Positions 5,712-27,470 of a stretch of DNA of 45,509 bases are shown here, piece by piece (within the stretch, counting starts at the first letter, position 1; the number at the start of each line of letters is the position of its first letter). The DNA comes from Mariniphaga sp. (lineage in GTDB: Bacteria; Bacteroidota; Bacteroidia; Bacteroidales; Prolixibacteraceae): positions 1 to 45,509 of the forward strand of contig JAGXGA010000006.1 of the NCBI GenBank assembly GCA_024636975.1, given 5' to 3'. The notes beneath the pieces are model-generated. The model had not been told where the DNA came from, searched no databases, and saw only the letters and a list, made by a program, of their open reading frames with translations. The position numbers were made by a program, and so were the translations under genes.

Positions 5712-5729
5712 TGCACAAACGTTTGCGCA
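5712..5729. promoter_or_regulatory. LacI-family operator
   Basis: TGCACAAACGTTTGCGCA is an 18-bp palindrome with one mismatched base pair and a central CpG, the classic layout of LacI/PurR-family operators. It lies 36-53 bp upstream of the LacI gene's chosen ATG, so it most likely mediates autoregulation and control of the permease-ribokinase genes. Specific binding is inferred. Confidence 0.8.
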
Positions 5730-5764
5730 AATTCCAGAAAATGTGCAATTTTGTTTTGCAGCCT

Positions 5765-8727: not shown

Positions 8728-8797
8728 CAGTATTATAACTTTAATTGAAGTTTATCTGGCAGATGATAAGAAAGGACAATGTTACATTAAAAGAAGT

Positions 8798-10871: not shown

Positions 10872-12443
10872 ATGAAAGCAATTGTATTTCTTTTATTAGC
10901 TCTGGCAGCCTTTGCTGGATGTCAGATTTCTGCAGGGGAAAAAGGCAAAAAATCTTTTTCCGAAGGAGAAACAGTCAGAATTTCCAGGTCCGGACTGCAG
11001 GATAAAATCAAAGGTGGATGGGCCGGTCAGGTGATTGGCTGCACCTATGGCGGGCCAACAGAATTTCATTGGAACGGTACCATGATCGGCGATCATGTAC
11101 CCATTCCGTGGGACGAAACCCGCATGTTGTGGTATTATGAAAATTCACCTGGACTTTACGACGATGTGTACATGGATCTCACCTTTGTTGATGTATTTGA
11201 AAAATACGGACTGGATGCTCCTGATTCACTTCATGCACTGGCCTTTGCCCGGGCAGAATATCCGCTGTGGCATGCCAACCAGGCAGCACGGTACAATATC
11301 CTGAATGGCATTATGCCGCCCGAATCGGGGTATTGGAAAAACAATCCGCATGCCGATGATATCGATTTTCAGATAGAGGCTGATTTTGCAGGATTGATGG
11401 CTCCCGGCATGGTGAACTCTGCTGCTGATATTGGCTGGCGCATCGGTCATGTCATGAACTATGGCGACGGAGTGTATGGCGGAGTTTACGTGGCTGCTAT
11501 GTATGCATTGGCCTTTGTTAATGACGATATGGAGTTTGTGGTGGAGGAAGCCTTGAAAACCGTACCGCCCGAAAGTGAATTTCATCAGTGCATTGCCGAC
11601 GTAATAAAGTGGTACAGGCAAAATCCGGACGACTGGAAATCGGCATGGTTTGAAGCGCAGAAGAAATGGACTTACGATAAAGGTTGTCCGGATGGTGTTT
11701 ACCGGCCGTTTAATATCGATGCCAAAATCAATGCAGCCTACATTGTCATCGGATTGCTTTACGGCAAAGGTGACTTTGGTGCTACAGTTGACATCAGTAC
11801 CCGCTGCGGATACGATTCGGATTGCAATCCGGCCAATGCCGCCGGTATTCTGGGTGCAATGATTGGCTACAGCAATATTCCGGATTACTGGAAACAGGGA
11901 ATTGATAAAGTGGAGAATATGAATTTTCAGTATACCGATATGTCGCTAAATAAGGTATATGAGATTGGGTTTGAGCATGCATCGGAATTGATACAGCAAA
12001 ACGGCGGCAGCATGGAAGGAGATGAGGTTTTGATTAAGTACCAGGTTCCGGAAACTGTGCCGCTTGAGGTTGGATTTGAAGGGCTTTACCCTACTGTTCG
12101 CAGAAGGATTGGTGATCAGCTTTCAAAAGATAATCCGGAAATTTCATTCGAAATCGATGGAAGCGGATTTGTAGTTGGAGGTCGTGCTGCAAAGGATGAT
12201 CGCCTACCTGAAGCTATACTGGAGGTAGAGGTATATGTCGATGGACAATTGGTTGAAACAGCTAAACTTCCAACCAATTGGACAGTGCGCCGCCATGAAG
12301 TTAGCTGGAATTATGATTTGCCTGAAGGAAAACATACAATTACTCTTAAAGCAAAAAAAATCCCCGATGGTTACCGTGTTGAGGCAGGCGATTTATTGGT
12401 TTACTCTACTGTTGATCCAGGCACAAGAATTTATTTTCAGTAA
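10872..12443 (+). CDS. ADP-ribosylglycohydrolase-family lipoprotein
   Basis: A 523-residue protein with a lipoprotein signal (AAFAGC, lipidated Cys17), so it acts in the periplasm or at the cell surface, unusual for this mostly cytosolic fold. The all-helical ADP-ribosylglycohydrolase domain spans about residues 38-380: KIKGGWAGQVIGCTYG at the start, D97-D98 in YDDVYMDLTF, and a GYDSDCNPANAAGILG block whose D315 and D317 correspond to the metal-binding aspartates of the DraG/ARH family. The metal-binding acids appear to be present. Residues about 400-523 form a beta-rich C-terminal domain. Likely role: hydrolysis of N- or O-glycosidic bonds to ribose. True ADP-ribose substrates are not proven; the domain could act on other ribosides. 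Confidence 0.85.
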   Translation: MKAIVFLLLALAAFAGCQISAGEKGKKSFSEGETVRISRSGLQDKIKGGWAGQVIGCTYGGPTEFHWNGTMIGDHVPIPWDETRMLWYYENSPGLYDDVYMDLTFVDVFEKYGLDAPDSLHALAFARAEYPLWHANQAARYNILNGIMPPESGYWKNNPHADDIDFQIEADFAGLMAPGMVNSAADIGWRIGHVMNYGDGVYGGVYVAAMYALAFVNDDMEFVVEEALKTVPPESEFHQCIADVIKWYRQNPDDWKSAWFEAQKKWTYDKGCPDGVYRPFNIDAKINAAYIVIGLLYGKGDFGATVDISTRCGYDSDCNPANAAGILGAMIGYSNIPDYWKQGIDKVENMNFQYTDMSLNKVYEIGFEHASELIQQNGGSMEGDEVLIKYQVPETVPLEVGFEGLYPTVRRRIGDQLSKDNPEISFEIDGSGFVVGGRAAKDDRLPEAILEVEVYVDGQLVETAKLPTNWTVRRHEVSWNYDLPEGKHTITLKAKKIPDGYRVEAGDLLVYSTVDPGTRIYFQ

Positions 12444-12460: not shown

Positions 12461-13444
12461 ATGAAAAAGATTATTTATATGCTATTGATTGTTTTGGCTG
12501 CATCGGTATGTAACGGGCAGACGAAAATAATTTTTGATACCGATTTTGGAGGCGATGCCGATGACCTGGGAGCACTGGCTATGCTGCATAATTTTCATAA
12601 CAGGGGTGAATGTGAATTGCTGGGCATTGCAAGCTGGTCGACAGAGCAGTATGTCATTCCCGCCATGGATGCAGTTAACAGGTTTTACAACAATCAAGGT
12701 ATCCCCATGGGAATACGTTCAAAAAATTCACATTTCTCCGGTGAGAACTACAACAAACCCATCGCCGATGCCCTGCCGCATAAATTGACCAACCAGGATG
12801 TCCCACTGGCACTTGATTTATACCGAAAATTATTGTCGGAAGAGGACGATAAAAGCGTGACCATTGTAACAGTGGGGCCGCTGAAAAACATCATGGATCT
12901 GATCCAATCGGAAGGCGATAGCCATTCCCCGTTAAAGGGTAATGAGCTGATTGAAAAAAAAGTGAAGCAGTTTGTGATTATGGGAGGCCATTTTCCGCAA
13001 GGTAAGAATGAATGGAATTTCAACGGTAATATGCCAGGGGTTACAAGGTTTGTACTGGAAAATCTTACAGTACCAGTTGTTTTTTCAGGGTTTGAAGTTG
13101 GTGTGGCCATCCAGTCAGGGGCTGTTTTTGAGAATCTTGATAAGTCGCATCCGCTTTATGTGGGGTTTAAACATTTCAGCCAAAATGCATCATGGATGAA
13201 GGACCGGTATAAAGGAAAAATCCTTAATAACTCCACCTACGATCAGACTGCCGTATTATATGCTGTGAGAGGTGGTGAAGGTAAATACTGGGATATTGTT
13301 GATAACGGGTATTGTGTGGCAGAAGAAAACGGCGACAATTATTGGGTTGAGGGCGATAAATTCAATCATGCATACCTGGTGTTGAAAAAGAAACCTGGAG
13401 AAATGGTACAGTTAATTGAGGGCATGATGCTGAATGAGTTTTAA
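12461..13444 (+). CDS. Exported nucleoside hydrolase (IUNH family), copy A
   Basis: A 327-residue inosine-uridine-preferring nucleoside hydrolase homologue with a signal peptide ending near NGQ. The calcium/ribose-binding motif is FDTDFGGDADDLGALAML, with D26, D28, D34 and D35. VTVGPLKNIMDLI and the FVIMGGHFPQGKNEWNFNGN block (equivalent to the metal-binding loop and nucleoside-binding Asn of the family) are present. It is exported, unlike cytosolic RihA/B/C. Its motif resembles the C-terminal half of the GH5 fusion (21398-23398) more than copy B (18936), which suggests a distinct subfamily. Likely activity: release of ribose from nucleosides or another riboside outside the cytoplasm. Gap to the ADP-ribosylglycohydrolase is 17 bp. 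Confidence 0.9.
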   Translation: MKKIIYMLLIVLAASVCNGQTKIIFDTDFGGDADDLGALAMLHNFHNRGECELLGIASWSTEQYVIPAMDAVNRFYNNQGIPMGIRSKNSHFSGENYNKPIADALPHKLTNQDVPLALDLYRKLLSEEDDKSVTIVTVGPLKNIMDLIQSEGDSHSPLKGNELIEKKVKQFVIMGGHFPQGKNEWNFNGNMPGVTRFVLENLTVPVVFSGFEVGVAIQSGAVFENLDKSHPLYVGFKHFSQNASWMKDRYKGKILNNSTYDQTAVLYAVRGGEGKYWDIVDNGYCVAEENGDNYWVEGDKFNHAYLVLKKKPGEMVQLIEGMMLNEF

Positions 13445-13566: not shown

Positions 13567-14901
13567 ATGGAATATAAAAGCAGAAGAACATTTCTGAAAA
13601 ATTCAGCAATTGCAATGGCCGGGTCAGGAGTTTACACATCAATTCCCAAAAGCCTGTTTGCATCTACACAACCTTCTGATCGCATCAATATTGGAGTAAT
13701 AGGTGTAAACTGGTGGGGCACTGAAAATATGCAGCACCTGCTGAGGGCAGATTCCGCGGCGCATTGTGTTGCCATGTGCGATGTGGATCAGGTTCGGCTG
13801 AAGGAGCAGGCTGCTGTGCTAAAAGATGAATTTCCGGATAGGACAGGCAGCATAAAGTTTTATGACGATTTTCGCAAACTTCTCGGTGATAAGAATATCG
13901 ACGGAGTTATTATTGCAACTCCCGACCACTGGCACACTTATATGTTTGCGGAAGCATGTAAGGCCGGAAAGGCAATATATGTTGAGAAACCAACCGGACA
14001 CAGCATTGCGGAGTGCAGGATAATGGTGGATTTGCAACGAAAATACCAGAATGTGGTAACTACGGGGTTGTGGCAAGTTAGTCTTGGGTATTTTGTTGAT
14101 GCATTCAATATATTAAAAACAGGTGTGCTGGGCGACGTTTATAAAGTGCATTGCTGGATTCCAACCAACACCGATCCGGTGATTTATGACCCTGCTCCAC
14201 AACCGGTCCCCGAAACACTGGATTACGAAATGTGGATTGGTCCCGCACCATTCAGGCCATACAACAGCAACCGCCTTCACAGACAATGGAGGAACTATTG
14301 GGACTTTGGCGGAGGACAACAGACCGACTGGGTGCACTACCTGGACTCTGCATTCGACGGACTACTTGCATTAGGATTTCCGAGAACTTATCCTAAAACA
14401 GTGTTCTCTGCCGGTTACAGGCATCCGGAAACGATGACAGAAACACCAAGGGTGCAAACTTCTGTATTTCAATTCGACAAGTATCATGTTGTATGGGAAC
14501 AACAGGCTGCCAGTTTGTATAACCGGGTGGATGGTGTTGCATGGATCGGGAGTAAGGGGACATTGGTATGCAACCGCACAGGATATGAAATCATTCCCAG
14601 GAACGGCAACGATGGAAAACCCCTTATTGAGGCTAAAAAAGTGGATGGCCCTTATGGGAACCAGCACAGTCATATGATCAACTGGGCAAAATGTATTCGT
14701 GAAAAAAATCAAAAGACAAACGGCACAATTGAAAAAGGAAGCTATGCAACAGAAGTCGCATGGATAGCTAATATTTCACACAGGTTGGGCGGTGAAAGTC
14801 TCGAATACCTGCCCGAAGAGATGAAGTTCAGGAATAACCCTGAAGCGGATGCTTACATTCATCCCAACTACCAGAACGGATGGAAGTTCCCGGAATTATG
14901 A
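13567..14901 (+). CDS. Tat-exported Gfo/Idh/MocA oxidoreductase
   Basis: A 444-residue NAD(P)-dependent sugar oxidoreductase-like protein. A twin-arginine signal (SRRTFLKNSAIAMAG) precedes a Rossmann domain starting INIGVIGVNWWG, with VIIATPDHWH and the catalytic-lysine motif EKPTGHS near residue 140. The C-terminal part (DFGGGQQTDWVHYLDSAF, GYRHPETMTETP) matches the large exported Bacteroidota branch. Some relatives carry a tightly bound cofactor and act on glycosides by oxidation-elimination; whether this one does is unknown. A 122-bp gap separates it from the nucleoside hydrolase, so a new transcript could start here, though I see no clear promoter. Confidence 0.9.
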   Translation: MEYKSRRTFLKNSAIAMAGSGVYTSIPKSLFASTQPSDRINIGVIGVNWWGTENMQHLLRADSAAHCVAMCDVDQVRLKEQAAVLKDEFPDRTGSIKFYDDFRKLLGDKNIDGVIIATPDHWHTYMFAEACKAGKAIYVEKPTGHSIAECRIMVDLQRKYQNVVTTGLWQVSLGYFVDAFNILKTGVLGDVYKVHCWIPTNTDPVIYDPAPQPVPETLDYEMWIGPAPFRPYNSNRLHRQWRNYWDFGGGQQTDWVHYLDSAFDGLLALGFPRTYPKTVFSAGYRHPETMTETPRVQTSVFQFDKYHVVWEQQAASLYNRVDGVAWIGSKGTLVCNRTGYEIIPRNGNDGKPLIEAKKVDGPYGNQHSHMINWAKCIREKNQKTNGTIEKGSYATEVAWIANISHRLGGESLEYLPEEMKFRNNPEADAYIHPNYQNGWKFPEL

Positions 14902-14947: not shown

Positions 14948-15841
14948 ATGAATACATTAAGAGAAAATATATTGTTCTTATGTTTTATGGTATTTGCTAC
15001 AAACATTTTTGCTGCTGCCGGCGATACCGCTACCATCGAGAAAAGACTTGCTATGAGGGATGATGTGGAATTCTTCGGAGGATTTGAACAAGGATACAAT
15101 GATGCATCATGGAAAAGCCGTTGGGGCATTCCATGGATGGAACGTGCAACGGAGAATGAAGTGGTGGGCAACGGCTTTAAAGGCGGAAAATCCCTTCGTG
15201 TTAAATATCCCAAAGGTGGGGTAGGGCCCTCTGAAACGGGTGGCCAATTTCCAATTGTTTTCCGAAATATGGATGGCATTCAGGAAGGTCTGTACCATGA
15301 GTTGTACCTCCGGTATTACCTGAAATTTGAAGAAGGTTTTGATTTTAACCGCGGCGGAAAGCTTCCGGGCCTTATGGGAGGGGGTGATTCGTGGGGACGC
15401 TCTGGTGGGCATCAGCCCGATGGTACAAATGGCTGGACCTTAAGGTTTATGTGGCGAAGTGAAGGTAGGCTGGTGGTATATGCCTATGTTCCAAAAAGCG
15501 GAAACGGCAAATGGGGAAACGATAAATGGGGACAGGATATCGCTTGTGATTTCAAGGCTGAGCAAGGCAAATGGCATTGCATCGAGCAATATGTGAATGT
15601 CGGTACCCCTGGGAATGATGATGGAATTTTAAAGGTTTGGATTGATGGGAAAGAAAGGCTGAACATTACAGATATGCGCTTCTGGAATGTAGAAAATGAT
15701 TATGGCCCCGTGGGAGGCATATGTTTTTCTACCTTCCATGGTGGAAATACTGCCGATTGGGCTCCGCGGATTGATTCGTATGCACAGTTTGACGGTTTTG
15801 TGACAGCTAAAAAGAGGGTAGGGGAGTTCTGTGTCGAATAG
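14948..15841 (+). CDS. Secreted polysaccharide lyase-like protein (PL14-type)
   Basis: A 297-residue protein with a signal peptide ending near FAAAG and one beta-jelly-roll domain. The pattern YLRYYLKFEEGFDFNRGGKLPGLMGG, the Trp-rich WTLRFMWRSEGRLVVYAYVP, GKWHCIEQYVNVGTPG and a C-terminal PVGGICFSTFHGGNTADW followed by a Tyr/Asp strand (SYAQFDGF) fits the polysaccharide lyase 14-like (alginate/glucuronan lyase-like) jelly-roll family. The role would be eliminative cleavage of a uronic-acid-containing polymer outside the cell. The exact substrate is not predictable, and some jelly-roll members are non-catalytic binders. It lies 46 bp after the Gfo/Idh gene and is followed by a broken glycosidase gene. 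Confidence 0.75.
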   Translation: MNTLRENILFLCFMVFATNIFAAAGDTATIEKRLAMRDDVEFFGGFEQGYNDASWKSRWGIPWMERATENEVVGNGFKGGKSLRVKYPKGGVGPSETGGQFPIVFRNMDGIQEGLYHELYLRYYLKFEEGFDFNRGGKLPGLMGGGDSWGRSGGHQPDGTNGWTLRFMWRSEGRLVVYAYVPKSGNGKWGNDKWGQDIACDFKAEQGKWHCIEQYVNVGTPGNDDGILKVWIDGKERLNITDMRFWNVENDYGPVGGICFSTFHGGNTADWAPRIDSYAQFDGFVTAKKRVGEFCVE

Positions 15842-15866: not shown

Positions 15867-17307
15867 ATGATTATGAGAAATGTATTACTGGTTTTATTGA
15901 TTTCCCTTTTGGGGATGTCTTGCCAAAACACCAAACAAATACCAGGAACGGAATCAAGTCCTGTCTCTGTTTCTGACGAAAACCCTTATTACTGGCAGTA
16001 TAACGGCAAAACAGTTTTACTGCTTGGTGGAACCTGGCAGGATAATTTATTTAATCACCCTGCAGGCTTGGCTGAACATCTTGATTTGCTGAAATCGGCA
16101 GGTGGAAATTATGTGCGAAATACAATGAGCCACCGAAATGAAGGGAATGTTTTTGCCTTTAAACGGGAAGAAGATGGTCGTTTTAACCTGAATCAATTTA
16201 ATGAGGAATACTGGCAACGGCTAAAGAACTTTCTGGATTTATGTTACGAACGCGATATCATTGTACAGATAGAAATCTGGGATCCGTGGGATCATTATGA
16301 AGATCATCAATCGTATGGTGGCTGGTCGCACCATCCTTTTAATCCTGCGAACAATGTAAACTATACAGCAGAGGAGTCGGGTTTGCCAACAAAAATTGAT
16401 TACGCACCACGTGGTGAGCCAACCGAACATCCGTTTTTTCGTACAGTACCTGCATTGGCAAATAATAAAACCATCCTTGAAAATCAGTGTTCATTCGTGG
16501 ATAAACTACTGGCAATAACTTTGGAGCATCCAAATGTACTTTATTGCGTAAACAACGAAAGTGGCGAGCAAATTGAGTGGAGCGATTACTGGGCCGATTA
16601 TGTAAATAAGACAGCTGAGAAAATTGGTGTAAAGGCAAATATAACAGAAATGCGACGTAATGAAGATGTTCGTGCGCAGGATCACCATCGGGTGTATAAT
16701 CATCCCGATCGTTATACTTATCTTGAATAATGCATGGTCGGGCCTTGGCCAAAAACACTATGATAATATTATGTATGTACGTGATCTGATTTCAGATAAT
16801 CCGCGCCCTATAAATAACATCAAGAATTATGGTGCAGTCAGGCACGGAGAAGATGAATCTGTAGCCCGATTTTGCCGCATTGTTTTTGCCGGATGTGCCA
16901 GTTCCCGTTTTCACCGGCCACATCCTCTGGAAGATCCAACCCAACATGAAGCAGCATCGGAATTCGGCCTTGGGCTAAGCCCTCTCGCTCAAAGGGTAAT
17001 TCAATCCTTACGTTGGGTGGTCGGGGAAATAGATATTGCTTCATCCTATCCTCAAAACGATCTTCTTTCCGAAAGGCAGGAGAATGAAGCTTATGTACTG
17101 GCTGATTCAGAGCAACAGTATGCAGTATATTTCCCAAAAGGTGGTGAAGTTGTTTTACATTTAAACAAAACCAATAATAAATGGGAGGTTGTTTGGCTTA
17201 ATGTTATAACAGGGGACAAAATTGAAACGGTTGCAGAAGCTGGCAATAAAACTCTTTTGCTCAGAACACCGGAAATAGGGCATTGGGTTGCTGTAATAAA
17301 ACCATAA
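15867..17307 (+). pseudogene. Frameshifted DUF4038-type glycosidase lipoprotein
   Basis: One gene split by a +1 frameshift (or 2-nt loss) near 16715-16730. The first part (lipoprotein signal ending GMSC) encodes a cellulase-superfamily TIM barrel: GGNYVRNTMSHRNEGN, VQIEIWDPWDHYEDH, HPNVLYCVNNESGEQ, and stops at TYLE. The second frame resumes at once with NNAWSGLGQKHYDNI and ends in a beta domain (AVYFPKGGEVVLHL to HWVAVIKP) matching the PF12904-type C-terminal module. DUF4038 plus this module is the architecture of GH140 (apiosidase)-like enzymes. The total span, 1441 nt, is three times 480 plus one base, consistent with one extra nucleotide. No obvious slippery heptamer is seen, so mutation or sequencing error is likelier than programmed frameshifting. 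Confidence 0.85.
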
Positions 17308-17329: not shown

Positions 17330-18784
17330 ATGAGATTAAACACGTTTTGCTATTTACTGCTCGTGGTACTTGCGTTTAATTCATGTAAAAATGAGGTGCC
17401 AGTTGAAAAACATCGTGTAGTTATCCTTACCGATATGACACATGATGACGGCAATTCTTTCATCCGATACCTTTATTATGCTCCCTGGTTCGATCTGGAG
17501 GCGTTGATTATAACCAACCAGTTGCCCGATTTTAACTACAATGATGAAGGGCCATGGAAGAAGGCCACAGGCATACTTGATGCCTATAAGCAGGAATTGC
17601 CTCAATTGCGAAAACATGACCCGGATTTTCCGGATTATGAAGATTTAAAGGCTGTTACAAAAAGGGGAAGGGGAACTATCCCCATTATCTGGCTTACCAA
17701 TTCTTTGGAGTTTAAAAACCATATAGCCGATCGTTATGTGGAAAGTTCCTGGGATTCTGTGTATTTTCACGACTGGATAGGTGAAGGGTTGAATCCTCAT
17801 GGAGAAACAAAAGATTCGGAGGGAAGCGAATATTTGCAGGAAGTTTTCGATAAGGACGATGACCGGCCGATTTATGTACAGGCCTGGGGCGGGCCCATTA
17901 CCTTTATTCAGGCGCTTTACAGGTACAGGCAACGGCAGGGGCCGGAGAAGTTTGAAAAGCTGTTGTCGAAACTGCATGTATACGGTATCCTTTTCCAGGA
18001 CATCACCTTTGATTACCTGATTGATCTGCAAAAAGTGAAAGAGCTGGACTGCACAAATTTCGGAACTGCAACCTTTACGTACGAAGGCGAAAGAGCCACT
18101 CCGCGTTGGTTACTGCATGATGGAGGTCATTTCTGGCGTTATGTGGGTGGTTCAGACCCTGTGATGCTGCGCAGCGAAGTGAATGGTCACGGGCCTATGT
18201 CGGATATATACGATAACGGAGGTGAAGGCGACACTCCTTCTTTTCTTTACCTGTTAAGTTCAGCATTGGGATTAAATAACCCTGAAGATCCCGGACAAGG
18301 AAGCTGGGGTAATATGTTTTACCCGATGGGCAACGATTTTCCGGAAGGTTATTACCATACCTGCTTTCACGACAGGGGTGAGCTTGAACGATGGATTCCC
18401 GATGCGAAAAAAAGTTTTCAGAACCGGCTCCAATGGTCGGTAAAAGAACCGTTAGAGGTGAATCATGAACCGGTAGCAGCTATTAATGGTGATAAAAGTA
18501 ATCGTATATTGTCATTGAATGTACAACCGGGAGAAGAAGTGAAGTTGGATGCATCCAAATCTTTTGATCCCGATGGTGATGAAATACATTATAATTGGTT
18601 TCGCTATGATGAGGCGGATTCATACCTGGGCAGCTTTGAAATCAGTAATCCGGAAGATGCTTTACAGGCCTTTATTGTTCCTGACGATATCGCTTCTGGT
18701 AACATTCACCTGGTGCTGGAAGTACATGATGCAGGGTCACCCGATTTGGTGGCTTACCGGAGGGTAATTTTAAAAACAAAATAA
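17330..18784 (+). CDS. DUF1593 nucleoside-hydrolase-like lipoprotein, copy A
   Basis: A 484-residue lipoprotein (AFNSC, Cys19). Residues about 28-330 are a DUF1593 (PF07632) domain with a nucleoside-hydrolase-like fold: VVILTDMTHDDGNSFIRYLYY keeps D35, D39 and D40 of the metal site, followed by LEALIITN and PIYVQAWGGPITFIQALY. The C-terminal residues about 370-484 form a beta-sandwich with a PKD-like start (VKLDASKSFDPDGDEIHYNW), as usual in this family. Family members are annotated as cellulose-binding or nucleoside-hydrolase-like with no settled reaction. It pairs with copy B at 20085; copy A has TDMTHDD where copy B has TDGESDD, so the two may differ in activity. Confidence 0.88.
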   Translation: MRLNTFCYLLLVVLAFNSCKNEVPVEKHRVVILTDMTHDDGNSFIRYLYYAPWFDLEALIITNQLPDFNYNDEGPWKKATGILDAYKQELPQLRKHDPDFPDYEDLKAVTKRGRGTIPIIWLTNSLEFKNHIADRYVESSWDSVYFHDWIGEGLNPHGETKDSEGSEYLQEVFDKDDDRPIYVQAWGGPITFIQALYRYRQRQGPEKFEKLLSKLHVYGILFQDITFDYLIDLQKVKELDCTNFGTATFTYEGERATPRWLLHDGGHFWRYVGGSDPVMLRSEVNGHGPMSDIYDNGGEGDTPSFLYLLSSALGLNNPEDPGQGSWGNMFYPMGNDFPEGYYHTCFHDRGELERWIPDAKKSFQNRLQWSVKEPLEVNHEPVAAINGDKSNRILSLNVQPGEEVKLDASKSFDPDGDEIHYNWFRYDEADSYLGSFEISNPEDALQAFIVPDDIASGNIHLVLEVHDAGSPDLVAYRRVILKTK

Positions 18785-18935: not shown

Positions 18936-19982
18936 ATGAAAAGAATGACAAATAATTATGTAAGGGCAAACAGAATATTTCTGCTGTTATTATTGCCTGC
19001 AGTTTTCTTTTATTCCTGTAACCTGATAGAAGGATCAAAGATTCCGGTGGTGTTTGATACCGATGCCAACAACGAGGTGGATGATCAGCATGCACTGGCA
19101 TACCTGCTGTTTAATGGCGATCACTTTGATGTGGAAGGGGTGACAGTGAATGCTACAAGTGCTCCTACAGGCTATTCCGATGAATCGGATGTGAGCGATC
19201 ACTATGAAGAAGCTAAACGGGTGATGCAGCTTTGCGGGGAACTTTACGGGAAAATTCCCCTGTTGACCGGTGCCGACGGATCGTATGAGGAAATAAAGGA
19301 CAAAATTGGATTACCCTCTTTTGATGGCCATGAGGCAGTTGATTTTATTATTGAGCAGGCAATGAAGGAAAGAAGTCAGAAATTGGTTTTGCTCCCTGTA
19401 GGAAAGCTTACCAATATTGCCCTGGCATTAAGAAAAGAACCTGCAATTGCCGACAGAATAAGGATTGTATGGCTGGGGTCCAATTATCCTGATCCGGGGG
19501 AGCACAACCAGGACTGGGACATCGAATCGATGAATTTTATCCTGGATGTGGATGTACCTTTTGAAATGGTTACTGTACGAAGTGGACAACCATCGGGAAC
19601 TGCTGCTGTTATGGTTTCGAAAGCGCAAATTATGCATCGTATGCCGGGTAAGGGTCCTGAAATTTCAGTATCGGTAACGGGCCGCAATGGTGGCGAATTC
19701 AACAATTTTGGTGATTATTCAGCCAATCTGTTTGAAACTTATGGCATGTGGGGAAATCCTCCGGGGCGTGCCTTGTTTGATCTGGCTGCTGTTGCCATTG
19801 TAAAGAATGGCGCCTGGGCTGAGCACAAAGAAATACCCGCTCCGGTATATGTGAACGGTAATTGGGTGGAACGTCCAAATAACCCAAGGAAAATTATCGT
19901 TTGGGAATGGTTCGATGTTTATGGAATCATTAACGATTTTTTTGTTACAATGGATGATTACGAACTCGTGAAAGTGGATTAA
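18936..19982 (+). CDS. Nucleoside hydrolase lipoprotein, copy B
   Basis: A 348-residue IUNH-family protein with a lipoprotein signal (VFFYSC, Cys28). The metal/ribose site is VVFDTDANNEVDDQHALAYL, with D41, D43, D49 and D50. LVLLPVGKLTNIALAL and the VWLGSNYPDPGEHNQDWDIESMNF block follow in the expected order, and the C-terminal FDLAAVAIV supplies the late metal-site Asp of the family. Its DTDANNEVDD motif differs from the DTDxGxDxDD of copies A and C, so it is a separate subfamily rather than a recent duplicate. Start: the first ATG is used; in-frame ATG at 18945 is possible. Likely an envelope riboside hydrolase. Confidence 0.9.
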   Translation: MKRMTNNYVRANRIFLLLLLPAVFFYSCNLIEGSKIPVVFDTDANNEVDDQHALAYLLFNGDHFDVEGVTVNATSAPTGYSDESDVSDHYEEAKRVMQLCGELYGKIPLLTGADGSYEEIKDKIGLPSFDGHEAVDFIIEQAMKERSQKLVLLPVGKLTNIALALRKEPAIADRIRIVWLGSNYPDPGEHNQDWDIESMNFILDVDVPFEMVTVRSGQPSGTAAVMVSKAQIMHRMPGKGPEISVSVTGRNGGEFNNFGDYSANLFETYGMWGNPPGRALFDLAAVAIVKNGAWAEHKEIPAPVYVNGNWVERPNNPRKIIVWEWFDVYGIINDFFVTMDDYELVKVD

Positions 19983-20084: not shown

Positions 20085-21398
20085 ATGAAAATCAGTTGGC
20101 GTGTTTTATTATTTGTTTTGTTTTGGGGAAGTAGTGTATTTTCAGAAGGTTTTGCTGCGAAGGCGCAGGAAGTTGTAAAGCCAAGAACAATTGTTACCAC
20201 AGATGGGGAAAGTGATGATAAATGCTCATTCGTACGGTTTATGCTTTACACTACCGATTTTGATGTGGAGGGATTAATTTACACCAATTCGATGTGGCAC
20301 CTCAAAGGCAACGGTACACAATGGATGCACAATTATATTGATGAGTATTCCAAAGTATATAATAATTTGATGGTTCATCATTCCGGCTATCCGACTGCTG
20401 ACTTCCTGAAATCACGCCTGTACGTTGGGCAAATGGATGAAGTTGGGCTGGCTTCAGTTGGAGAAGGAAAGGATACTCCCGGTTCCGATCGTATTGTGGA
20501 AGTGTTGCTTGACGATGATCCGCGACCGATATGGCTGCAAGCCTGGGGTGGATTGAACAATATTTGCCAGGCCTTTTACCGCATTAAAACCTCCCATCCC
20601 GACCAGGTTGAAAAGGTCAGTCAAAAGGCCCGGGTATATGCCATTGCTGAGCAGGATGATTTGAAAGAGTGGCTGCAAAGAGAAATGCCTGATGTGATGT
20701 ATATTCTGAACGGAGTGCAGTTCTGGCGTGTAATTGCCTATTCATGGGACAGGAGGAATCCGATGCAGGAGCATGAAATTTATACAGAGAAGTGGCTGAA
20801 GGAAAATATAAAATCAAAAGGACCGCTGGGGCGTTTGTATGAACGGCAGCTGATGGAAGAAGGCGATTCCCCGGCATTTTTTCATTTAATGAAAACTGGC
20901 CTGCGCAGTCATGAGAATCCGGCATGGGGAGGCTGGGGTGGCCGGTTTGAACAACATGGACCTGGAAATTTCTGGCGCGATGCAAAGGACGACGGCGATA
21001 ATACAAAACCTTTATGGCGTTTTATTGTGCCTATTTCTGAAGATTTTGCCGCACGTATGGACTGGTCGGTAAATGATGAATATGATGACGCAAATCATCC
21101 CCCTGTTGTTAAGATTAAGCAAGGTGAAGAATTTATTGTAAAAGCCGGTTCCAAAGTAAAACTGAAGGCTTCTGCCACCGATCCTGATGATGATGAACTG
21201 ACAACCAGGTGGTGGCAGTATCACGAGGCAGGAAGTTATGAAGGTAAAGTTGAAATAGATAAGCCTGAAAAAGGAAAAATCAAGTTGAGCATCCCGCAGG
21301 ATGCATCAGGAAAAACAATTCATTTGATTTTTGAAGTAAAGGATAATGCAATTCATCCTTTTACAAGATATAAACGAATTGTATTGAATGTTGAATAA
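20085..21398 (+). CDS. DUF1593 nucleoside-hydrolase-like protein, copy B
   Basis: A 437-residue secreted protein with a signal peptide ending near AAKAQ. DUF1593 domain at about residues 32-320: RTIVTTDGESDDKCSFVRFMLY keeps D40, D44 and D45; then FDVEGLIYTNSMWHLKGNG, RPIWLQAWGGLNNICQAFYR and VMYILNGVQFWRVIA. Residues about 345-437 form the beta-sandwich C-domain (KVKLKASATDPDDDELTTRWWQYHEAGSYEG). This is closer to the family consensus than copy A. Its stop codon overlaps the start codon of the GH5-nucleoside hydrolase fusion by one base (TAATG), so the two are translationally coupled and probably work together. Confidence 0.9.
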   Translation: MKISWRVLLFVLFWGSSVFSEGFAAKAQEVVKPRTIVTTDGESDDKCSFVRFMLYTTDFDVEGLIYTNSMWHLKGNGTQWMHNYIDEYSKVYNNLMVHHSGYPTADFLKSRLYVGQMDEVGLASVGEGKDTPGSDRIVEVLLDDDPRPIWLQAWGGLNNICQAFYRIKTSHPDQVEKVSQKARVYAIAEQDDLKEWLQREMPDVMYILNGVQFWRVIAYSWDRRNPMQEHEIYTEKWLKENIKSKGPLGRLYERQLMEEGDSPAFFHLMKTGLRSHENPAWGGWGGRFEQHGPGNFWRDAKDDGDNTKPLWRFIVPISEDFAARMDWSVNDEYDDANHPPVVKIKQGEEFIVKAGSKVKLKASATDPDDDELTTRWWQYHEAGSYEGKVEIDKPEKGKIKLSIPQDASGKTIHLIFEVKDNAIHPFTRYKRIVLNVE

Positions 21399-23398
21399 TG
21401 ATTTATATAATTGATAGCACATTTAAGCCGCTACTGAAGATCATTTGTTTTTTTTTATTGCTGTTTGCATCTGAGGTTGCATTCACTCAGGAAGTGATGC
21501 ATGTTAAAGGAAAGAATTTGTATGATCCCTGTGGAGAACATGTTGTTTTACGCGGAGTAAATGAAATGTTCATCTGGGCAGATGATATTACAGGTCAGCA
21601 AATCCTGCCTGAAATTTCAAAATCAGGGGCCAATGTGGTGCGGATTGTCTGGTTAAGTAACAGGGAAAATGAAAAGGCCACTCCGGCAGACCTCGATAAG
21701 GTTATTTCAGAATGCATCCGGAACAAAATGTTACCCATGCCCGAATTGCATGGAGCAACCGGAAAATGGGACAAACTTCAGGAGCAGGTTGATTACTGGA
21801 CAGACCCGGAAGTGGTCAGGGTTTTAAAAAAGCACGAACCCTATCTGCTTTTGAATATTGCCAACGAAGTGGGTGACCATTCCATTGATACGAAAACTTT
21901 TTTGGAAGGGTACAATGAGGCTGTAAATAAAATTAGAGCTACAGGTTTACGTTGCCCTTTAATTATTGATGCGTCCGGTTGGGGTCAGGATTTGAACATT
22001 TTAATGGAGACAGGACCCAGCCTGATTGAAAACGATCCGCTAAATAATCTCATGCTTTCGGTTCATATGTGGTGGCCGGCCGATGATGGTTCAACCGGAA
22101 GGATTGTGAAAGGGATTGAAGAAGCTGTGAAGATGGACCTGCCACTTTTAATTGGAGAGTTTGCTCCTATGGGTGTGGGATGCAAACAATCCATTGATTA
22201 CAGAACCATTATGGAAATGTCACAGAAACACGAAATCGGATGGCTGGCATGGTCATGGGGAGCAGTTCGCAATGGCGATTGTCATGAAATGGATATGACT
22301 GCCGGAGAAAAGCGGGGCATGTTCGATGGTTTGCATGGTTGGGGTAGGGAAGTGGCCGTTACTGATCCAAACAGCATTGCCAATACATCTAAAAAGACGT
22401 ATTTTCTTGAAAATCTAATGTGTCCGGCAGATGGGCATACTGAAAAAATAATATTTGATACCGACATGGGCTCCGATTGCGACGATGTGGGCGCACTGGC
22501 ATTGCTTCATCATTATGCTGATTTGGGAAAGGTTGAGATTTTGGGGTGCATTTACAGTTCGGGAAAAGTTCCATTTGGCGCAGGAATAGTTGAAGCCATT
22601 AACATTTGGTACGGGCGGCCCCGGATTCCTGTAGGGGCATATCATGGAATCGAAGTGGGCGATCCTATTGATAAAATGCTGGCAGAAAAATTGGTGAAGG
22701 ACAGAACCAGCTTCAAAAACAGAATAATACACAATTCAGATGCGATTGAACAAACACTTGTCAACCGTCTCATACTTGCCAGCCAGGAAGACCACAGTGT
22801 AACCTACATCACGGTTGGCCACACAAAAGGTCTTTATGAACTGCTGGTTTCCGAATCTGACGAGATTTCACCTCTTACCGGAGCTGAACTTGTCGAAAAG
22901 AAAATAAAACGCTGGGTGGCGCTTGGTGCCTTGAATGCAAATAATAAAGAAAGACATTACACCAGAGACTGGAATTTCTTTTTTAACGAAACGGCTACTT
23001 ATTCAAAATACCTGGTGGAAAATTTCCCCCGTCCGGTTTTCTATGTTGATGGCGGTTCGGAGGTACATACTGGCAAAACGCTTAAATATACTAGTCCCGG
23101 AAATATCGTACGCACGGCTTACCGCGATTGGTTGTGGAATGTAGAGAAAAAGACCCTTGATGATCAGCGTCCAAGCTGGGATTTGGTAACTGTGTATTTT
23201 GCAGTTGAAGGTATGGGCGAATTTATGGAAAGTGCAGGCAATGGCTGGCTCGATTTTGATATCGAAAAAGGATGCCTCTGGAATTCAGGAGAAAACCATC
23301 TTGAGCAAACCTTCATTCAGCAGAAGGAAGGGACAAATGAGCGCTTTGCAGATTACCTGAATGAATTGATTTCAACAGAACCTAAATTAAAAAGATAA
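21398..23398 (+). CDS. GH5 glycosidase-nucleoside hydrolase fusion, exported
   Basis: A 666-residue secreted two-domain enzyme. After a signal peptide (residues about 12-31), residues 32-335 are a GH5-type (cellulase/mannanase) TIM barrel with acid/base E157 in LLNIANEVGD and nucleophile E254 in LLIGEFAPMG; VVRIVW, SVHMWWP and GWLAWSWG fit the beta-strands. A short linker with PADGHTEK leads to a complete nucleoside hydrolase domain (about 349-666): IIFDTDMGSDCDDVGALALL with D354, D356, D362 and D363, VTYITVGHTKGLYELL and WVALGALNANN. The frame is continuous, with no stop or shift at the junction. Catalytic residues of both halves look intact. Fusion implies that a glycan cut and ribosyl (or similar furanosyl) hydrolysis act on the same substrate. 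Coupled to DUF1593 copy B by a TAATG overlap. Confidence 0.9.
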   Translation: MIYIIDSTFKPLLKIICFFLLLFASEVAFTQEVMHVKGKNLYDPCGEHVVLRGVNEMFIWADDITGQQILPEISKSGANVVRIVWLSNRENEKATPADLDKVISECIRNKMLPMPELHGATGKWDKLQEQVDYWTDPEVVRVLKKHEPYLLLNIANEVGDHSIDTKTFLEGYNEAVNKIRATGLRCPLIIDASGWGQDLNILMETGPSLIENDPLNNLMLSVHMWWPADDGSTGRIVKGIEEAVKMDLPLLIGEFAPMGVGCKQSIDYRTIMEMSQKHEIGWLAWSWGAVRNGDCHEMDMTAGEKRGMFDGLHGWGREVAVTDPNSIANTSKKTYFLENLMCPADGHTEKIIFDTDMGSDCDDVGALALLHHYADLGKVEILGCIYSSGKVPFGAGIVEAINIWYGRPRIPVGAYHGIEVGDPIDKMLAEKLVKDRTSFKNRIIHNSDAIEQTLVNRLILASQEDHSVTYITVGHTKGLYELLVSESDEISPLTGAELVEKKIKRWVALGALNANNKERHYTRDWNFFFNETATYSKYLVENFPRPVFYVDGGSEVHTGKTLKYTSPGNIVRTAYRDWLWNVEKKTLDDQRPSWDLVTVYFAVEGMGEFMESAGNGWLDFDIEKGCLWNSGENHLEQTFIQQKEGTNERFADYLNELISTEPKLKR

Positions 23399-23400
23399 CT

Positions 23401-26103
23401 ATGAAACAAACCGCTGCAATAGCATTGATATTCGTTATTTCTCTTAGCAGGACATTCGCAGATGCCGGTGGAGGCGGAGATCTAATAAAGGTTTCACCGG
23501 TAACTGATAAAATATTGATGCTTCACCTGAAAGATGGCCACATAGATACATACGGTACCTGGGAATCGGTGCAGGATAATGTGCTTTACCACGATCCGAC
23601 AGATTTGGAAGAAGTGACCCAAATGAAGAATTATTTGCTGACCAGCCCGGATGATAAAAATTATTCTTCCAACAGGAATCCGGTAAACATTGGGCGAAAA
23701 TCGAAAGGACTGGAATATCAGGGCGGAGACATTGATCCGCCATACATATGGCAACACTGGATTTACATTGAATTGTCCCATGCATTGCAACAGGGGAAAA
23801 CATATACTTTAAAACTCAGGAACATTGGCGGTAATAGTTCAGTTACCTTCACTTACGATGTGGACCAACTTCATTCGGAAACAGTGCATGTGAATATGGT
23901 GGGATTTCCCGAACAAGGACCAAAGTTTGCCTACCTTTCACATTGGATGGGTGAATTTAATACACCAGTGCATGTTGGCGGTGGACTTAACCTTGATGAT
24001 AAAGCCGGTGCTGAATTCCGAATTATTGAATATAACTCGGGTGAGACAGCCTTCTCAGGAACCATTGCCAAAAGAATGGACAAAACCTTTAAGGAAACAA
24101 ATAGTGATGATTTTCCGGGCGGAAATTATACCAATGCCGATGTGTGGGAATGCGATTTCAGTGCGTTTACCAAACCGGGAGAATACATTGTTGCGGTAGA
24201 TGGAATTGGTTGTTCGTTTCCTTTTGAAATAGGAAATGATGTAACTCGTGAAGCATTCTATTACGCCATGAAAGGCCTCTTTTGGCAGCGGCAGGGTATT
24301 GTAAAGGAGATTGAACCCGATTCGGTATACCCGAGAGCTCATCATCCTGACGACATTGTGTGGCTTTTTGATAAGAAATGGATAATGGATACCGGTTACG
24401 ACGAATCAAAATTTGATACCGCATCACCACGGATAAGAGGCGTATGGGGGCACTATTATGATGCGGGCGACTGGGATGGTTATACCCATCATAACCGGGT
24501 TCCTGCTCACCTGTTGCTTCTTTATGATTTGGCACCCTCTAAATTTTTGGATGGGGATGTAAATAACCGTTACAAATTGCATAAAGATGATGAATGGATT
24601 AAAGAGGGAAGGAATGGGATACCTGATTTGCTCGATGAAGCTTCATGGCTTGTTAATTTTCATCGCAGGGCCCGTCAGGTCATTATGGAACGAGGTGGCT
24701 CCGGCGGTGTTCCGGGATATGTAGGTCGCGATGCCATACCTCACAGCAACCGTATACCTGCATGGGAAGATACGCGTAAATGGTATTTGTCGGGCGAAAA
24801 CCCATTGGCTACTTTTTGGTATGCTGGTCATGCTGCGTATCTTGCTGTCAATTTAAACCAGTGGTATAAGGCAAATGGCAAAAGTGGAAACCATAGGGAG
24901 TCGGCAGATTGGTTGGCTGAAGCACTAGAAGCCTGGAAATGGGCCAATTCCAAAACAATTGAATCCAACGAAGGCAGGAGAGTAAAAGGTTATGCAGCTG
25001 CCTGCCTTTACCGGGCCACCGGAGATGTTAAATACCAGAAAATGTTTGAAGAATACTGGAAATGGGAACCCAACAAGTCGGATGGTGAAATAGCAGGGGT
25101 AAACATCTGGGATGTATCAGCAGCAGTAATCGCTTTAATTCCATCGGAGACTCCGGATTTAAATAAAGAATTACAGGCAGGTTGCAGGGCACATATAGTG
25201 GACAGGGCTGATGAGCGTGCTGCCGAAGTACTTGCGAACGGATACCGTAATGGGATGACCGATAATCAGTTTTTGCAGCTGGGGGCCTTCTCTACTGCAA
25301 GAACAACTACGCTGGCAGTGGCTCATAAGCTTACCGGGAATGCTAATTATTTGAATACCATACAGAATATTGTGAATTATGTTTTGGGTGGCAATCAGCT
25401 CAATATGACATATCTTTCAGGATTGGGCGAGCGGTCGGATAACTGGCTTTTTCAACCCAGTGCATATTTGGTAAGCAATAAAAACAGCATGGTTTATACT
25501 CCGGAAAACTATCCGGGGCAAACCAGTTACTTTGGCGGTACCGGACTGGCAAGTCAATACTGGCAGAACAAGGGAACATGGAAGTGGTCGGAATATTTTT
25601 CCCGGCTTGCTGCTTATCCTCAGGCTGCTGAACCACCAAGTGTCTGGCCCGGCGCTGAGCAGAAATTCGAAAACCGTTACAGTATACAGGGGGGAGAATT
25701 TACCATCCATCAGCAAATGAACCACATGATTTTCTCAATGGGTTACCTCAAAGCAATGAACAGTGAAGCCAGTGATGAATTCACACTGGACGCAAGACCT
25801 GAGGTAGAATTGAACCTGGTTGATGGACATCTTTTTGCAAATTCGGGTTGCTGGCTGTCAGCAAATGCCTCTGATAATACGCGCAGAGTGGAATATTATT
25901 ATGATTGGCGTTTCATTGGAGAAAGCATTGATAAAGAAAATAATTTCCTGCTTTTTTGGACGCCCGGGTTGAACGATGAAACAAAAGTGCTTATAACTGC
26001 TGTTGCTTATAGTAATAAAGGGCGGAAATCAGTTCCTGCAACAGATGGTGAAAAACATATAATGGTTTCGTCATATGAAGAATGTGGTGCAGAACAGGAA
26101 TAG
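23401..26103 (+). CDS. GH9 endoglucanase-type glycosidase
   Basis: A 900-residue secreted protein (signal peptide ends near TFADA). About residues 30-150 is a beta domain; 155-280 is the CelD N-terminal Ig-like domain (VHVNMVGFPEQGPKFAYLS to GEYIVAVDG). The GH9 (alpha/alpha)6 catalytic domain covers about 285-780: YYDAGDWDGY with D354 and D357 as catalytic-base aspartates, IPDLLDEASWLVNF, VLGGNQLNMTYLSGLG, and a late GGEFTIHQQMNHMIFSMGYL where E766 is the probable general acid. The C-terminus is another Ig-like module. It starts 2 bp after the fusion gene, so they are cotranscribed. GH9 enzymes cut beta-1,4-glucans and related chains; the real substrate may differ. Confidence 0.88.
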   Translation: MKQTAAIALIFVISLSRTFADAGGGGDLIKVSPVTDKILMLHLKDGHIDTYGTWESVQDNVLYHDPTDLEEVTQMKNYLLTSPDDKNYSSNRNPVNIGRKSKGLEYQGGDIDPPYIWQHWIYIELSHALQQGKTYTLKLRNIGGNSSVTFTYDVDQLHSETVHVNMVGFPEQGPKFAYLSHWMGEFNTPVHVGGGLNLDDKAGAEFRIIEYNSGETAFSGTIAKRMDKTFKETNSDDFPGGNYTNADVWECDFSAFTKPGEYIVAVDGIGCSFPFEIGNDVTREAFYYAMKGLFWQRQGIVKEIEPDSVYPRAHHPDDIVWLFDKKWIMDTGYDESKFDTASPRIRGVWGHYYDAGDWDGYTHHNRVPAHLLLLYDLAPSKFLDGDVNNRYKLHKDDEWIKEGRNGIPDLLDEASWLVNFHRRARQVIMERGGSGGVPGYVGRDAIPHSNRIPAWEDTRKWYLSGENPLATFWYAGHAAYLAVNLNQWYKANGKSGNHRESADWLAEALEAWKWANSKTIESNEGRRVKGYAAACLYRATGDVKYQKMFEEYWKWEPNKSDGEIAGVNIWDVSAAVIALIPSETPDLNKELQAGCRAHIVDRADERAAEVLANGYRNGMTDNQFLQLGAFSTARTTTLAVAHKLTGNANYLNTIQNIVNYVLGGNQLNMTYLSGLGERSDNWLFQPSAYLVSNKNSMVYTPENYPGQTSYFGGTGLASQYWQNKGTWKWSEYFSRLAAYPQAAEPPSVWPGAEQKFENRYSIQGGEFTIHQQMNHMIFSMGYLKAMNSEASDEFTLDARPEVELNLVDGHLFANSGCWLSANASDNTRRVEYYYDWRFIGESIDKENNFLLFWTPGLNDETKVLITAVAYSNKGRKSVPATDGEKHIMVSSYEECGAEQE

Positions 26104-26195: not shown

Positions 26196-27470
26196 ATGAA
26201 TAGAATAATGAATCTACTAAATCAAGTAAAAAGAATTAAATCAGTTGTTTATGTGTTTTCTTTAATGGCCTTTTTATTTTCTGCAGTAGTGAATGCTCAG
26301 AATGTAGAACTGGAAAAATCAATTGCTGAGCATCGGAAGGGAGAAATTGTAGTAAAAGCAAAAAAAGGGGCTAAAGTAAGCATTGAACAACAGAAGCATG
26401 AGTTTTGGTTTGGATGCGCAATCAGCGATGGTATTTTTAACGGAAGGGCTTCAGAGGCTGACATTAAGATGTACAAGGAGAAATTCCTCGAAAATTTTAA
26501 TTCGGCGGTTACTGAAAATGCGGTTAAATGGCCAGGAATGGAAAGAAGAAAAGGTGAAGTGGACTATTCACTTGTAGATGCCATGCTGGAATGGACTGAT
26601 GAAAATGAAATGCCGCTCAGGGCTCACAACCTGTTTTGGGGAATAGAGCAATTTATTCAGCCATGGGTGAAGGAACTTTCCGACGACGAACTGGAAGAAA
26701 CTCTTCAGAACCGGGCTGAAACTGTTACCGCCCGATATAAAGGGCGCTTTACTGAATACGATCTGAACAATGAAATGATACACGGTAACTACTATGAAGA
26801 ACGTCTCGGACCCGATATTACCAAAAAAATGGCGCAGTGGGCTCATAACGGTGACCCTGGTATAAAACTTTACCTGAACGATTACGATATTCTTACCGGT
26901 AATAAGTTAAATGAATACATGGCCCACATCCGTTTGATTCTGGCGCAGGGGGTAAAGATCGACGGCATTGGTGTTCAGGGTCACCTGCATGCCGAATCAT
27001 TCGATCGTGATGAACTCAAACGGTCGCTTGACTCAATTGCTTTATTTAATCTGCCCATAAAAATTACTGAATTCAACATGCCGGGGCAGCGTTCAGAATA
27101 TTATCAGAACAGGGATTTGAAACTGACACCGGAAGAAGAAAAGCAGAAAGCTGCCAACCTGGTTGATTACTACAAAATCTGCTTTGCCCATCCGGCTGTT
27201 GATGGTATACTGATGTGGGGGTTTTGGGAAGGCGCTAACTGGATTCCACAGTCGTCGCTGTATAAACGTGACTGGACACCCACCCCTGCTGCAGATGCCT
27301 ACCAGAACCTGATATTTTCAGAATGGTGGACCAGTGAATCCGGAAAAACTGACCGTAAAGGGGAATTATCTGTGCCTGCTTTTTTTGGAACGTATAAAGT
27401 TACCGTTGACGGCGAAACCAGGGAGGTTGATCTAAAAAAAGATGACGGACGTGTAGTCGTTGAATTTTGA
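26196..27470 (+). CDS. GH10 xylanase-like protein
   Basis: A 424-residue secreted GH10 protein with a signal peptide ending near VVNAQ. A short beta segment (EIVVKAKKGAKVSI) leads into the TIM barrel: FNSAVTENAVKWPGME, RAHNLFWG, acid/base E193 in YDLNNEMIHG and nucleophile E292 in IKITEFNM. GH10 usually has TELD at the nucleophile strand; here it is TEFN, a divergent but conservative form seen in non-canonical members. The C-terminus (GTYKVTVDGETREVDLKKDDG) is a small beta module. The 92-bp gap from GH9 contains a weak hairpin, so readthrough or a separate transcript are both possible. Likely activity: endo-cleavage of xylan or a related beta-linked polymer. Confidence 0.88.
   Translation: MNRIMNLLNQVKRIKSVVYVFSLMAFLFSAVVNAQNVELEKSIAEHRKGEIVVKAKKGAKVSIEQQKHEFWFGCAISDGIFNGRASEADIKMYKEKFLENFNSAVTENAVKWPGMERRKGEVDYSLVDAMLEWTDENEMPLRAHNLFWGIEQFIQPWVKELSDDELEETLQNRAETVTARYKGRFTEYDLNNEMIHGNYYEERLGPDITKKMAQWAHNGDPGIKLYLNDYDILTGNKLNEYMAHIRLILAQGVKIDGIGVQGHLHAESFDRDELKRSLDSIALFNLPIKITEFNMPGQRSEYYQNRDLKLTPEEEKQKAANLVDYYKICFAHPAVDGILMWGFWEGANWIPQSSLYKRDWTPTPAADAYQNLIFSEWWTSESGKTDRKGELSVPAFFGTYKVTVDGETREVDLKKDDGRVVVEF

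Follow-up and report, generated by a model that had tools for sequence, protein, structure and literature searches.

A contig of 45,509 nucleotides from a Mariniphaga sp. genome (GenBank assembly GCA_024636975.1, contig JAGXGA010000006.1), the whole of which is called the window here, contains a gene whose product joins a glycoside hydrolase family 5 (GH5) barrel of the beta-mannanase type to a domain with the fold of nucleoside hydrolases (NHs). On sequence the GH5-NH fusion is real, and sequence and modelling together make the NH half a remote NH. We propose, with a probability of roughly 0.45, that the protein is an exported enzyme with two catalytic domains, the second of which would take off a cis-diol pentofuranose (ribose- or apiose-like) as plant glycans are broken down. 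NH domains recur in or beside glycan-degrading proteins of other genomes, and this wider pattern is a more important result than the exact pair.

The gene (positions 21398-23398, plus strand) is a single frame, as the original prediction, made from the DNA sequence alone, had it: an open reading frame (ORF) of 666 amino acids, uninterrupted from its ATG start to its stop, which overlaps the upstream gene by 1 nt and is followed after 2 nt by a GH9 gene. The signal peptide that had also been proposed appears as a hydrophobic N-terminal stretch with a mean hydropathy of 2.92 over 12 residues (hydropathy being the only measure used). The GH5-type barrel with E157 and E254 was likewise recovered: PF00150 matches residues 46-289 (E 8.8e-21; 75 bits, above the cut-off of 23.5), and a sequence search of the PDB with the fused protein found eight distinct sequences, all aligned inside residues 33-335, of which six are named mannanase, one endoglucanase and one cellulose-binding family II. 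The best matches (2whj, 1bqc, 3jug and 2whl, E about 1e-39) are all named beta-mannanase, and both glutamates, which we take to be the acid/base (E157) and the nucleophile (E254) as in GH5 generally, lie in mannanase-aligned segments. The group of 1bqc, 2whl and 3jug is presumably subfamily GH5_8. Neither the NCBIfam profiles nor PF07632 (Sde182_NH-like) matched the fused protein at E 0.01. The full-length model has a pTM of 0.56, with pLDDT below 50 at residues 288-296 and 299-345, values too low to place the two domains relative to each other.

Fold and predicted active site of the NH half

Modelled alone, the NH half reaches a pLDDT of 92.6 and a pTM of 0.93, and all 50 of the PDB structures listed by Foldseek (the best 50 of 97 matches, E <= 0.001) are NH-type enzymes. 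Searches of the PDB by sequence, either with the NH half or with a 13-row profile of its clade, found no NH, giving only chance-level matches (E 0.48 and E 0.43, respectively), and comparison of the NH-half profile with RihA/B/C was weak (probability 9.7%, E 0.0033); it is therefore the fold comparison that settles the NH fold. The complete NH domain of the original prediction stands by fold and not by Pfam, which placed the GH5 half above its cut-off and aligned only the first 124 residues of the NH half, below the cut-off for IU_nuc_hydro. A search of predicted viral structures gave five matches at E <= 0.001, all of them giant-virus proteins, two of which are named NH.

In an alignment of 100 NH domains (92 NH-like rows, less certain around insertions and deletions), D8, D10, D14 and D15 of RihC correspond to D354, D356, D362 and D363, the four aspartates originally named, to which D360 adds a fifth that had not been listed; N165 corresponds to N526 and D234 to D595. 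E163 is replaced by D524, H81 by V433 and H233 by W594, both of the Rih-type histidines on the leaving-group side being changed, and the Asp motif carries a two-residue insertion relative to RihA/B/C. The column of RihC N39 is a gap in all 92 NH-like rows; among these rows the aspartates are kept in 87 to 89 (elsewhere gaps, with a single Glu), the Asn in all 92 and the Trp in 69. Within the 13-row clade of the NH half there is no variation in the Asp cluster, the Asn or the distal Asp. As judged from this alignment, the sugar and metal side of the site is kept and the leaving-group side is unlike that of the Rih enzymes, although the Rih-type leaving-group His is not universal among true NHs.

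In a tree of the 100 domains, which has long branches and an unsure deep part, the NH half and 12 stand-alone relatives form one clade (support 100/99) that also includes a partial gene (L144; L and G numbers designate loci and genomes) and has members from Bacteroidota, KSB1 and Calditrichota, among others. The clade lies within a large group far from RihA/B/C. Mapping the state "alone or fused" onto the tree required at least 14 changes, or 17 with partner types kept separate, a rough count because of draft gene ends, made without L032, L046, L055, L057 and L144 and with permease, ADP-ribosylglycohydrolase family (ADPRGH) and tandem-NH proteins scored as fused.

Junction and occurrence of NH fusions

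Stand-alone relatives of the GH5 half in two genomes (G116, 64%; G281, 66%) end at, or a few residues before, the passage into CPADGHTEKIIFDTDMG. In the 12 stand-alone relatives of the NH half, 33 to 96 residues precede DTDMG in open frames, and in 12 of 12 these include a hydrophobic N-terminal stretch (mean hydropathy 2.38-3.10 over 12 residues); the same place in the fused protein has a hydropathy of 0.23 and no such stretch, the NH half lacking only its signal peptide. Several of the relatives have, by eye, a lipobox-like Cys after the hydrophobic stretch, but the strict lipobox pattern matched only a few of them and hydropathy was therefore used as the criterion for export. Probably the two became one when a GH5 gene lost its stop and the NH gene next to it lost its signal peptide, which is the simplest history.

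The original prediction had held that NHs are normally stand-alone cytosolic enzymes. This fails for the clade of the NH half, for which the idea of a cytosolic salvage enzyme was rejected on the hydropathy of the 12 N-termini and which has the lipobox-like Cys in several members, and it is countered elsewhere, in Bacteroidota, Verrucomicrobiota and Kiritimatiellae, by proteins that combine NH with PL11 (polysaccharide lyase 11), GH2, GH29 or apiosidase-like domains. A scan of genome contigs with six peptide patterns (exact peptides only) yielded 150 relatives, and the analysis kept the best 80 loci; these hold 24 NH-containing ORFs of at least 450 aa, and 19 of these were scanned with Pfam (all except those of L046, L055, L057, L073 and L078). 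A GH or PL partner was found in seven of the 19: PL11 in four (L021, L025, L037, L077), and GH2 (L039), GH29 (L084) and the apiosidase-like PF13204 (L070, Parabacteroides acidifaciens) in one each. Three more, all from Verrucomicrobiota, have a 3-keto-disaccharide hydrolase partner (L016 2955-5408, L051 9803-12334, L061 2965-4770), which may connect NH folds with the oxidative cleavage of glycosides, and four have an esterase-type partner (GDSL in L042 and L053, alpha/beta-hydrolase in L028 and L082); the others have PA14 (L075), ADPRGH (L062), a permease (L074), a second NH (L071) or no partner (L032). Outside the 80 loci, NH is fused to ADPRGH (L149) and FmdE (L151), and one NH protein has sub-threshold GH5 and apiosidase-like matches (L150). 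In G177, again outside the 80 loci, one chain has two NH-type domains, an NH domain being joined to an NH-like protein of the Sde182 type (L138 3785-6019). The first 119 residues of a 421-aa NH protein (L029 1301-2563) match two separate pieces of the window GH10 (phmmer, 24 and 82 bits), Pfam finding NH only. In the 140 genomes of the family, PF01156 has matches in 113, and most matches listed are frames of 300-400 aa, so that stand-alone NHs are the rule and fusions a minority.

The survey of the GH5-NH architecture found it only in the window's own genome. No mannanase-type GH5 partner occurs among the 19 scanned long NH proteins, no ORF in the stretches of the 80 retained loci contains the GH5 half, and the full protein, searched against genome sets of the family (140 genomes), the order (393) and the phylum (395), matched over both halves in the own genome alone; the sets overlap in part and each includes that genome. 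In the two larger sets no more than three candidates from each genome entered the scoring, with E 1e-40 as the threshold, and many genomes are drafts, so that a second case may have been missed. The fused gene was not found in three genomes of the same genus, and a literature search with little coverage of subscription journals turned up no publication describing a glycoside hydrolase fused to an NH. The beginning of a 172-aa ORF on another contig of the own genome (L157 8541-9056) is similar to the NH half (55-68% over 41-62 residues), but its later part is largely unlike it.

Gene clusters in the window and in other genomes

The fused gene lies in a row (Table 1) that runs LacI, permease, PfkB, a 705-aa protein, ADPRGH, NH12461, GFO oxidoreductase, PL14, DUF6298-like, Collagen_bind_2, Sde182, NH, Sde182, fused gene, GH9, GH10. 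Neither a TonB receptor nor SusD is among the 30 proteins scanned in the window, which is the whole contig. The 705-aa protein (8702-10819), in this row of sugar-utilisation genes, has no Pfam match. The DUF6298-like and Collagen_bind_2 sequences form one ORF in L138, L141, L155 and L165, and the pair in the window is a broken gene or a sequencing slip. In a genome of the same genus (L154 450-5303), relatives of the window's NH18936 and CBM9 genes stand together with a 984-aa ORF that matches the window's 983-aa SNF2 gene in size and order; the relatives are present there without the intervening glycan genes, and the locus therefore seems to vary within the genus.

Table 1. Features of the window, with the evidence for each
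Feature	Positions	Strand	Basis or remark
LacI-family regulator	5723..6793	+	Pfam
Sugar/ureide-type permease	6805..7806	+	Pfam
PfkB-family sugar kinase	7813..8727	+	Pfam
ADPRGH family protein	10872..12443	+	Pfam
NH-family protein of rare type (NH12461)	12461..13444	+	Pfam; genome searches
GFO/IDH/MocA oxidoreductase	13567..14901	+	Pfam
Polysaccharide lyase 14 family protein	14948..15841	+	Pfam
DUF6298-like ORF (below Pfam cut-off) and Collagen_bind_2 ORF	15867..17307	+	Overlap in two frames
Second Sde182-type NH-like protein	17330..18784	+	Pfam
Further NH-family protein (NH18936)	18936..19982	+	PF01156, 76.3 bits
Sde182-type NH-like protein, sequence relative of 2YHG	20085..21398	+	1-nt overlap with fused gene
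Fused gene	21398..23398	+	666 aa: signal-peptide-like N-terminus, GH5 (mannanase-like) barrel, NH-fold domain
Signal-peptide-like N-terminus, residues 1-31	21398..21490	+	Hydropathy peak; boundary by eye
GH5 barrel, residues 34-334	21497..22399	+	phmmer to beta-mannanase structures; PF00150
E157	21866..21868	+	Predicted acid/base; aligned NIANE segment
E254	22157..22159	+	Predicted nucleophile; aligned LIGEF segment
Junction, residues 335-349	22400..22444	+	Cys343 near the lipobox-like Cys place of several stand-alone relatives (by eye)
NH-fold domain, residues 350-666	22445..23395	+	Pfam (below cut-off), fold model, Foldseek, 13-row alignment
Asp cluster DTDMGSDCDD (D354, D356, D360, D362, D363)	22457..22486	+	Invariant in 13 rows; aligned to RihA/B/C
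D524-W525-N526	22967..22975	+	Aligned at RihC E163-F164-N165
W594-D595	23177..23182	+	Aligned at RihC H233-D234
GH9	23401..26103	+	2 nt downstream of fused gene
GH10	26196..27470	+	Pfam

An apiosidase-like gene directly adjoins one relative of the NH half (L009), and selected neighbours of others are Sde182 (L005), a glucuronyl esterase (L006), GDSL with CBM9 (L140), GH127 and DUF5695 (L017), a rhamnosidase (L141), a GFO oxidoreductase and sulfatases (L011), or an MFS sugar transporter with a sub-threshold GH5 and a GH42 at the limit (L010). A cluster in a genome of another family of the order (G177) comprises a permease, an ADPRGH-family protein, PfkB, the NH-Sde182 fusion, NH12461 and a GH5 closest to endoglucanases (5ihs, 6gjf), and continues, with NH and GH5 in an unbroken row with the next two, with a stand-alone relative of the NH half, Sde182, a sub-threshold-GH5 protein, a DUF6298-like/CelD_N protein, GH47 and ADPRGH. 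A genome of another class (G861, L155) has consecutive genes for a stand-alone mannanase-type GH5, a GH9 (1359 bits to that of the window), NH12461 and a DUF6298-like protein; G646 has GH9 and NH12461 together with a mannanase-type GH5 on the same contig, and on another contig a DUF6298-like gene and a rhamnosidase gene accompany a relative of the NH half.

Genes of the NH12461 type are rare (five of the 393 genomes and four of the 395 at E 1e-70, the own genome being counted in both). In four of seven other genomes (G861, G381, G440, G604) they directly adjoin a DUF6298-like, apiosidase-like or DUF5060/Collagen_bind_2 gene, and in G177 NH12461 shares its cluster with such a gene; among the partly scanned neighbours in G646 and G281 no such gene was seen. 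At L161 (10683-17338) an NH12461-type gene has an apiosidase-like gene on one side and an FAD oxidoreductase on the other, and a GMC oxidoreductase lies farther along. Genes for PfkB, ADPRGH, NH and permease recur together in Bacteroidota loci such as L018, L024 and L043, the NHs of which belong to a different tree branch from the fused NH half.

Possible functions and comparison with known systems

The suggestion of the original prediction that the NH half acts on a furanosyl group is reasonable in view of the kept sugar-side residues, the changed leaving-group His and the fusions to glycan-active domains. If the protein is an exported enzyme with two activities, the GH5 barrel would cleave, outside the inner membrane, the backbone of a beta-1,4-mannan or glucomannan, and the NH half would hydrolyse a cis-diol pentofuranoside on, or released with, the same plant material. 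Ca2+ and the Asp cluster would hold the 2,3-cis-diol of the furanoside, D356 being, as we assume from NHs in general, the likely activator of water. The permease and the PfkB kinase encoded in the locus may then import the freed pentose and phosphorylate it. The fit of ribose to the pocket and to the kinase, permease and ADPRGH genes suggests one candidate; that of apiose, which has a 2,3-cis-diol, to the apiosidase-like and PL11 partners suggests another, and the analysis found no direct evidence for a reading specific to ribose.

Several observations weigh against this two-activity reading. The PF01156 match (IU_nuc_hydro, residues 351-474, E 5.8e-5) reaches 23.3 bits against a curated cut-off of 34.2, and identity to solved NHs is 12-18%, with TM scores of about 0.6-0.7 among the matches listed. 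The GH5-NH pair was seen only once, so that joining the two halves may have no functional meaning. Among the 19 long NH proteins scanned, twelve lack a GH or PL domain, and five have no partner of the GH, PL, 3-keto or esterase type. Of the 23 rows of at least 550 aa, 14 fall in one branch of 20 rows that is not the branch of the window's NH half, a clustering of long NH proteins that would weigh against many independent origins of fusion. The scanned neighbours of three stand-alone relatives include no glycan gene: a T9SS-tailed protein (L007), an amidohydrolase and an erythromycin-esterase family protein (L008), and a MacB-type permease (L012). The set of kinase, permease and ADPRGH genes, finally, fits ribose from ordinary nucleosides equally well.

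Nucleoside scavenging is the strongest rival: on this possible, if doubtful, explanation the NH half would release ribose from nucleosides as an ordinary extracytoplasmic nucleosidase, and the fusion would do no more than export it together with a mannanase. W594 alone leaves room for a nucleoside substrate, because a Trp precedes the metal-binding Asp in the purine-stacking NH of T. vivax. The PfkB, permease, ADPRGH and NH genes of the locus resemble the B. thetaiotaomicron group around BT2804, which is listed in PMC10434189 as ribokinase, TonB receptor, SusD, DUF4969, nucleoside hydrolase and DMT permease. The same four types of gene occur together in L018, L024 and L043, but with NHs on another branch, and fusions to PL11, GH2, GH29 and apiosidase-like domains, with GH and PL genes as neighbours, would be unexpected for a mere nucleoside scavenger. 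An improbable alternative makes the NH half a scaffold or carbohydrate-binding domain with no hydrolytic activity, for which one may cite 2YHG, a solved relative of the adjacent protein (20085-21398) deposited as a cellulose-binding protein; however, the Asp cluster, the Asn and the distal Asp do not vary in the 13-row clade and are kept in 87-92 of the 92 NH-like rows, and a pure binding domain would have little use for them. Less probable still are two real enzymes with unrelated substrates, joined by a neutral accident in one lineage: this accords with the restriction of the fusion to its own genome among the 140, 393 and 395 searched, and its absence from all 80 loci, but NH and endo-glycanase genes adjoin in other lineages too. 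An assembly or sequencing join of two genes, conceivable in a draft of 67 contigs when each half occurs as a separate gene elsewhere, is very improbable because the transition falls in frame at the natural end of a GH5 protein and drops just the NH signal peptide, and is opposed also by tight packing between neighbours (-1 and +2 nt) and by related gene sets in other genomes.

The default reading of NH-fold proteins is that they are enzymes of nucleotide salvage. A bolder extension of the two-activity reading, which we hold tentatively and think rather unlikely, is that exported NH-fold proteins of this type are overlooked glycoside hydrolases: Ca2+-dependent furanosidases that would recognise apiose- or ribose-type pentofuranoses on plant cell-wall glycans by their 2,3-cis-diol, in partnership with apiosidase-like, PL11, GH9 and GH5 enzymes, the fusion being the most direct example. 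Should a branch of NH-fold proteins take furanose units off plant glycans, many exported "nucleoside hydrolases" carry the wrong name, and enzymes acting on furanosidic linkages (ribose- or apiose-like) would be open to testing; the first substrates to try are indicated by the fused protein and by the PL11, GH2, GH29 and apiosidase-like partners, whether fused or adjacent.

Compared with the GH5 beta-mannanases (1bqc/2whl/3jug), the fused protein aligns over the whole barrel, including both catalytic glutamates, and differs by its additional C-terminal NH-fold domain. With the NHs of PF01156 (E. coli RihA/B/C, Leishmania, T. vivax) it shares fold, Asp cluster, Asn and distal Asp, and it differs in being fused, apparently exported, below the Pfam cut-off and remote in sequence, and from RihA/B/C in the insertion in the Asp motif and the changed His. 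The ribose and nucleoside scavenging system rus of Bacteroides, which we take the BT2804 gene group to represent, resembles the window in its kinase, permease and NH, and also in ADPRGH, presumably a component of rus under what we assume to define a rus-type locus; the window differs in having no TonB receptor or SusD among its scanned proteins and in several added GH and PL genes. The multidomain NH proteins (PL11, GH2, GH29, apiosidase-like, 3-keto, esterase) similarly combine NH with a glycan- or ester-active domain in one chain, the fused gene differing in its partner and in its branch of the NH tree. Sde182/Sde0182-type proteins (PF07632, 2YHG), two of which are encoded in the same locus, are NH-like as the fused NH half is, but belong to another Pfam family and have a different C-terminal domain, and the two in the window have no GH domain; a passage of PMC2386152 does not concern proteins of this type. 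An NH-related protein is tied to carbohydrate metabolism in the title of Hehemann et al. 2011, as given in the reference list of PMC5294722, and that connection, together with 2YHG, was thus already known, whereas the exact GH5-NH pair is, as far as we know, new.

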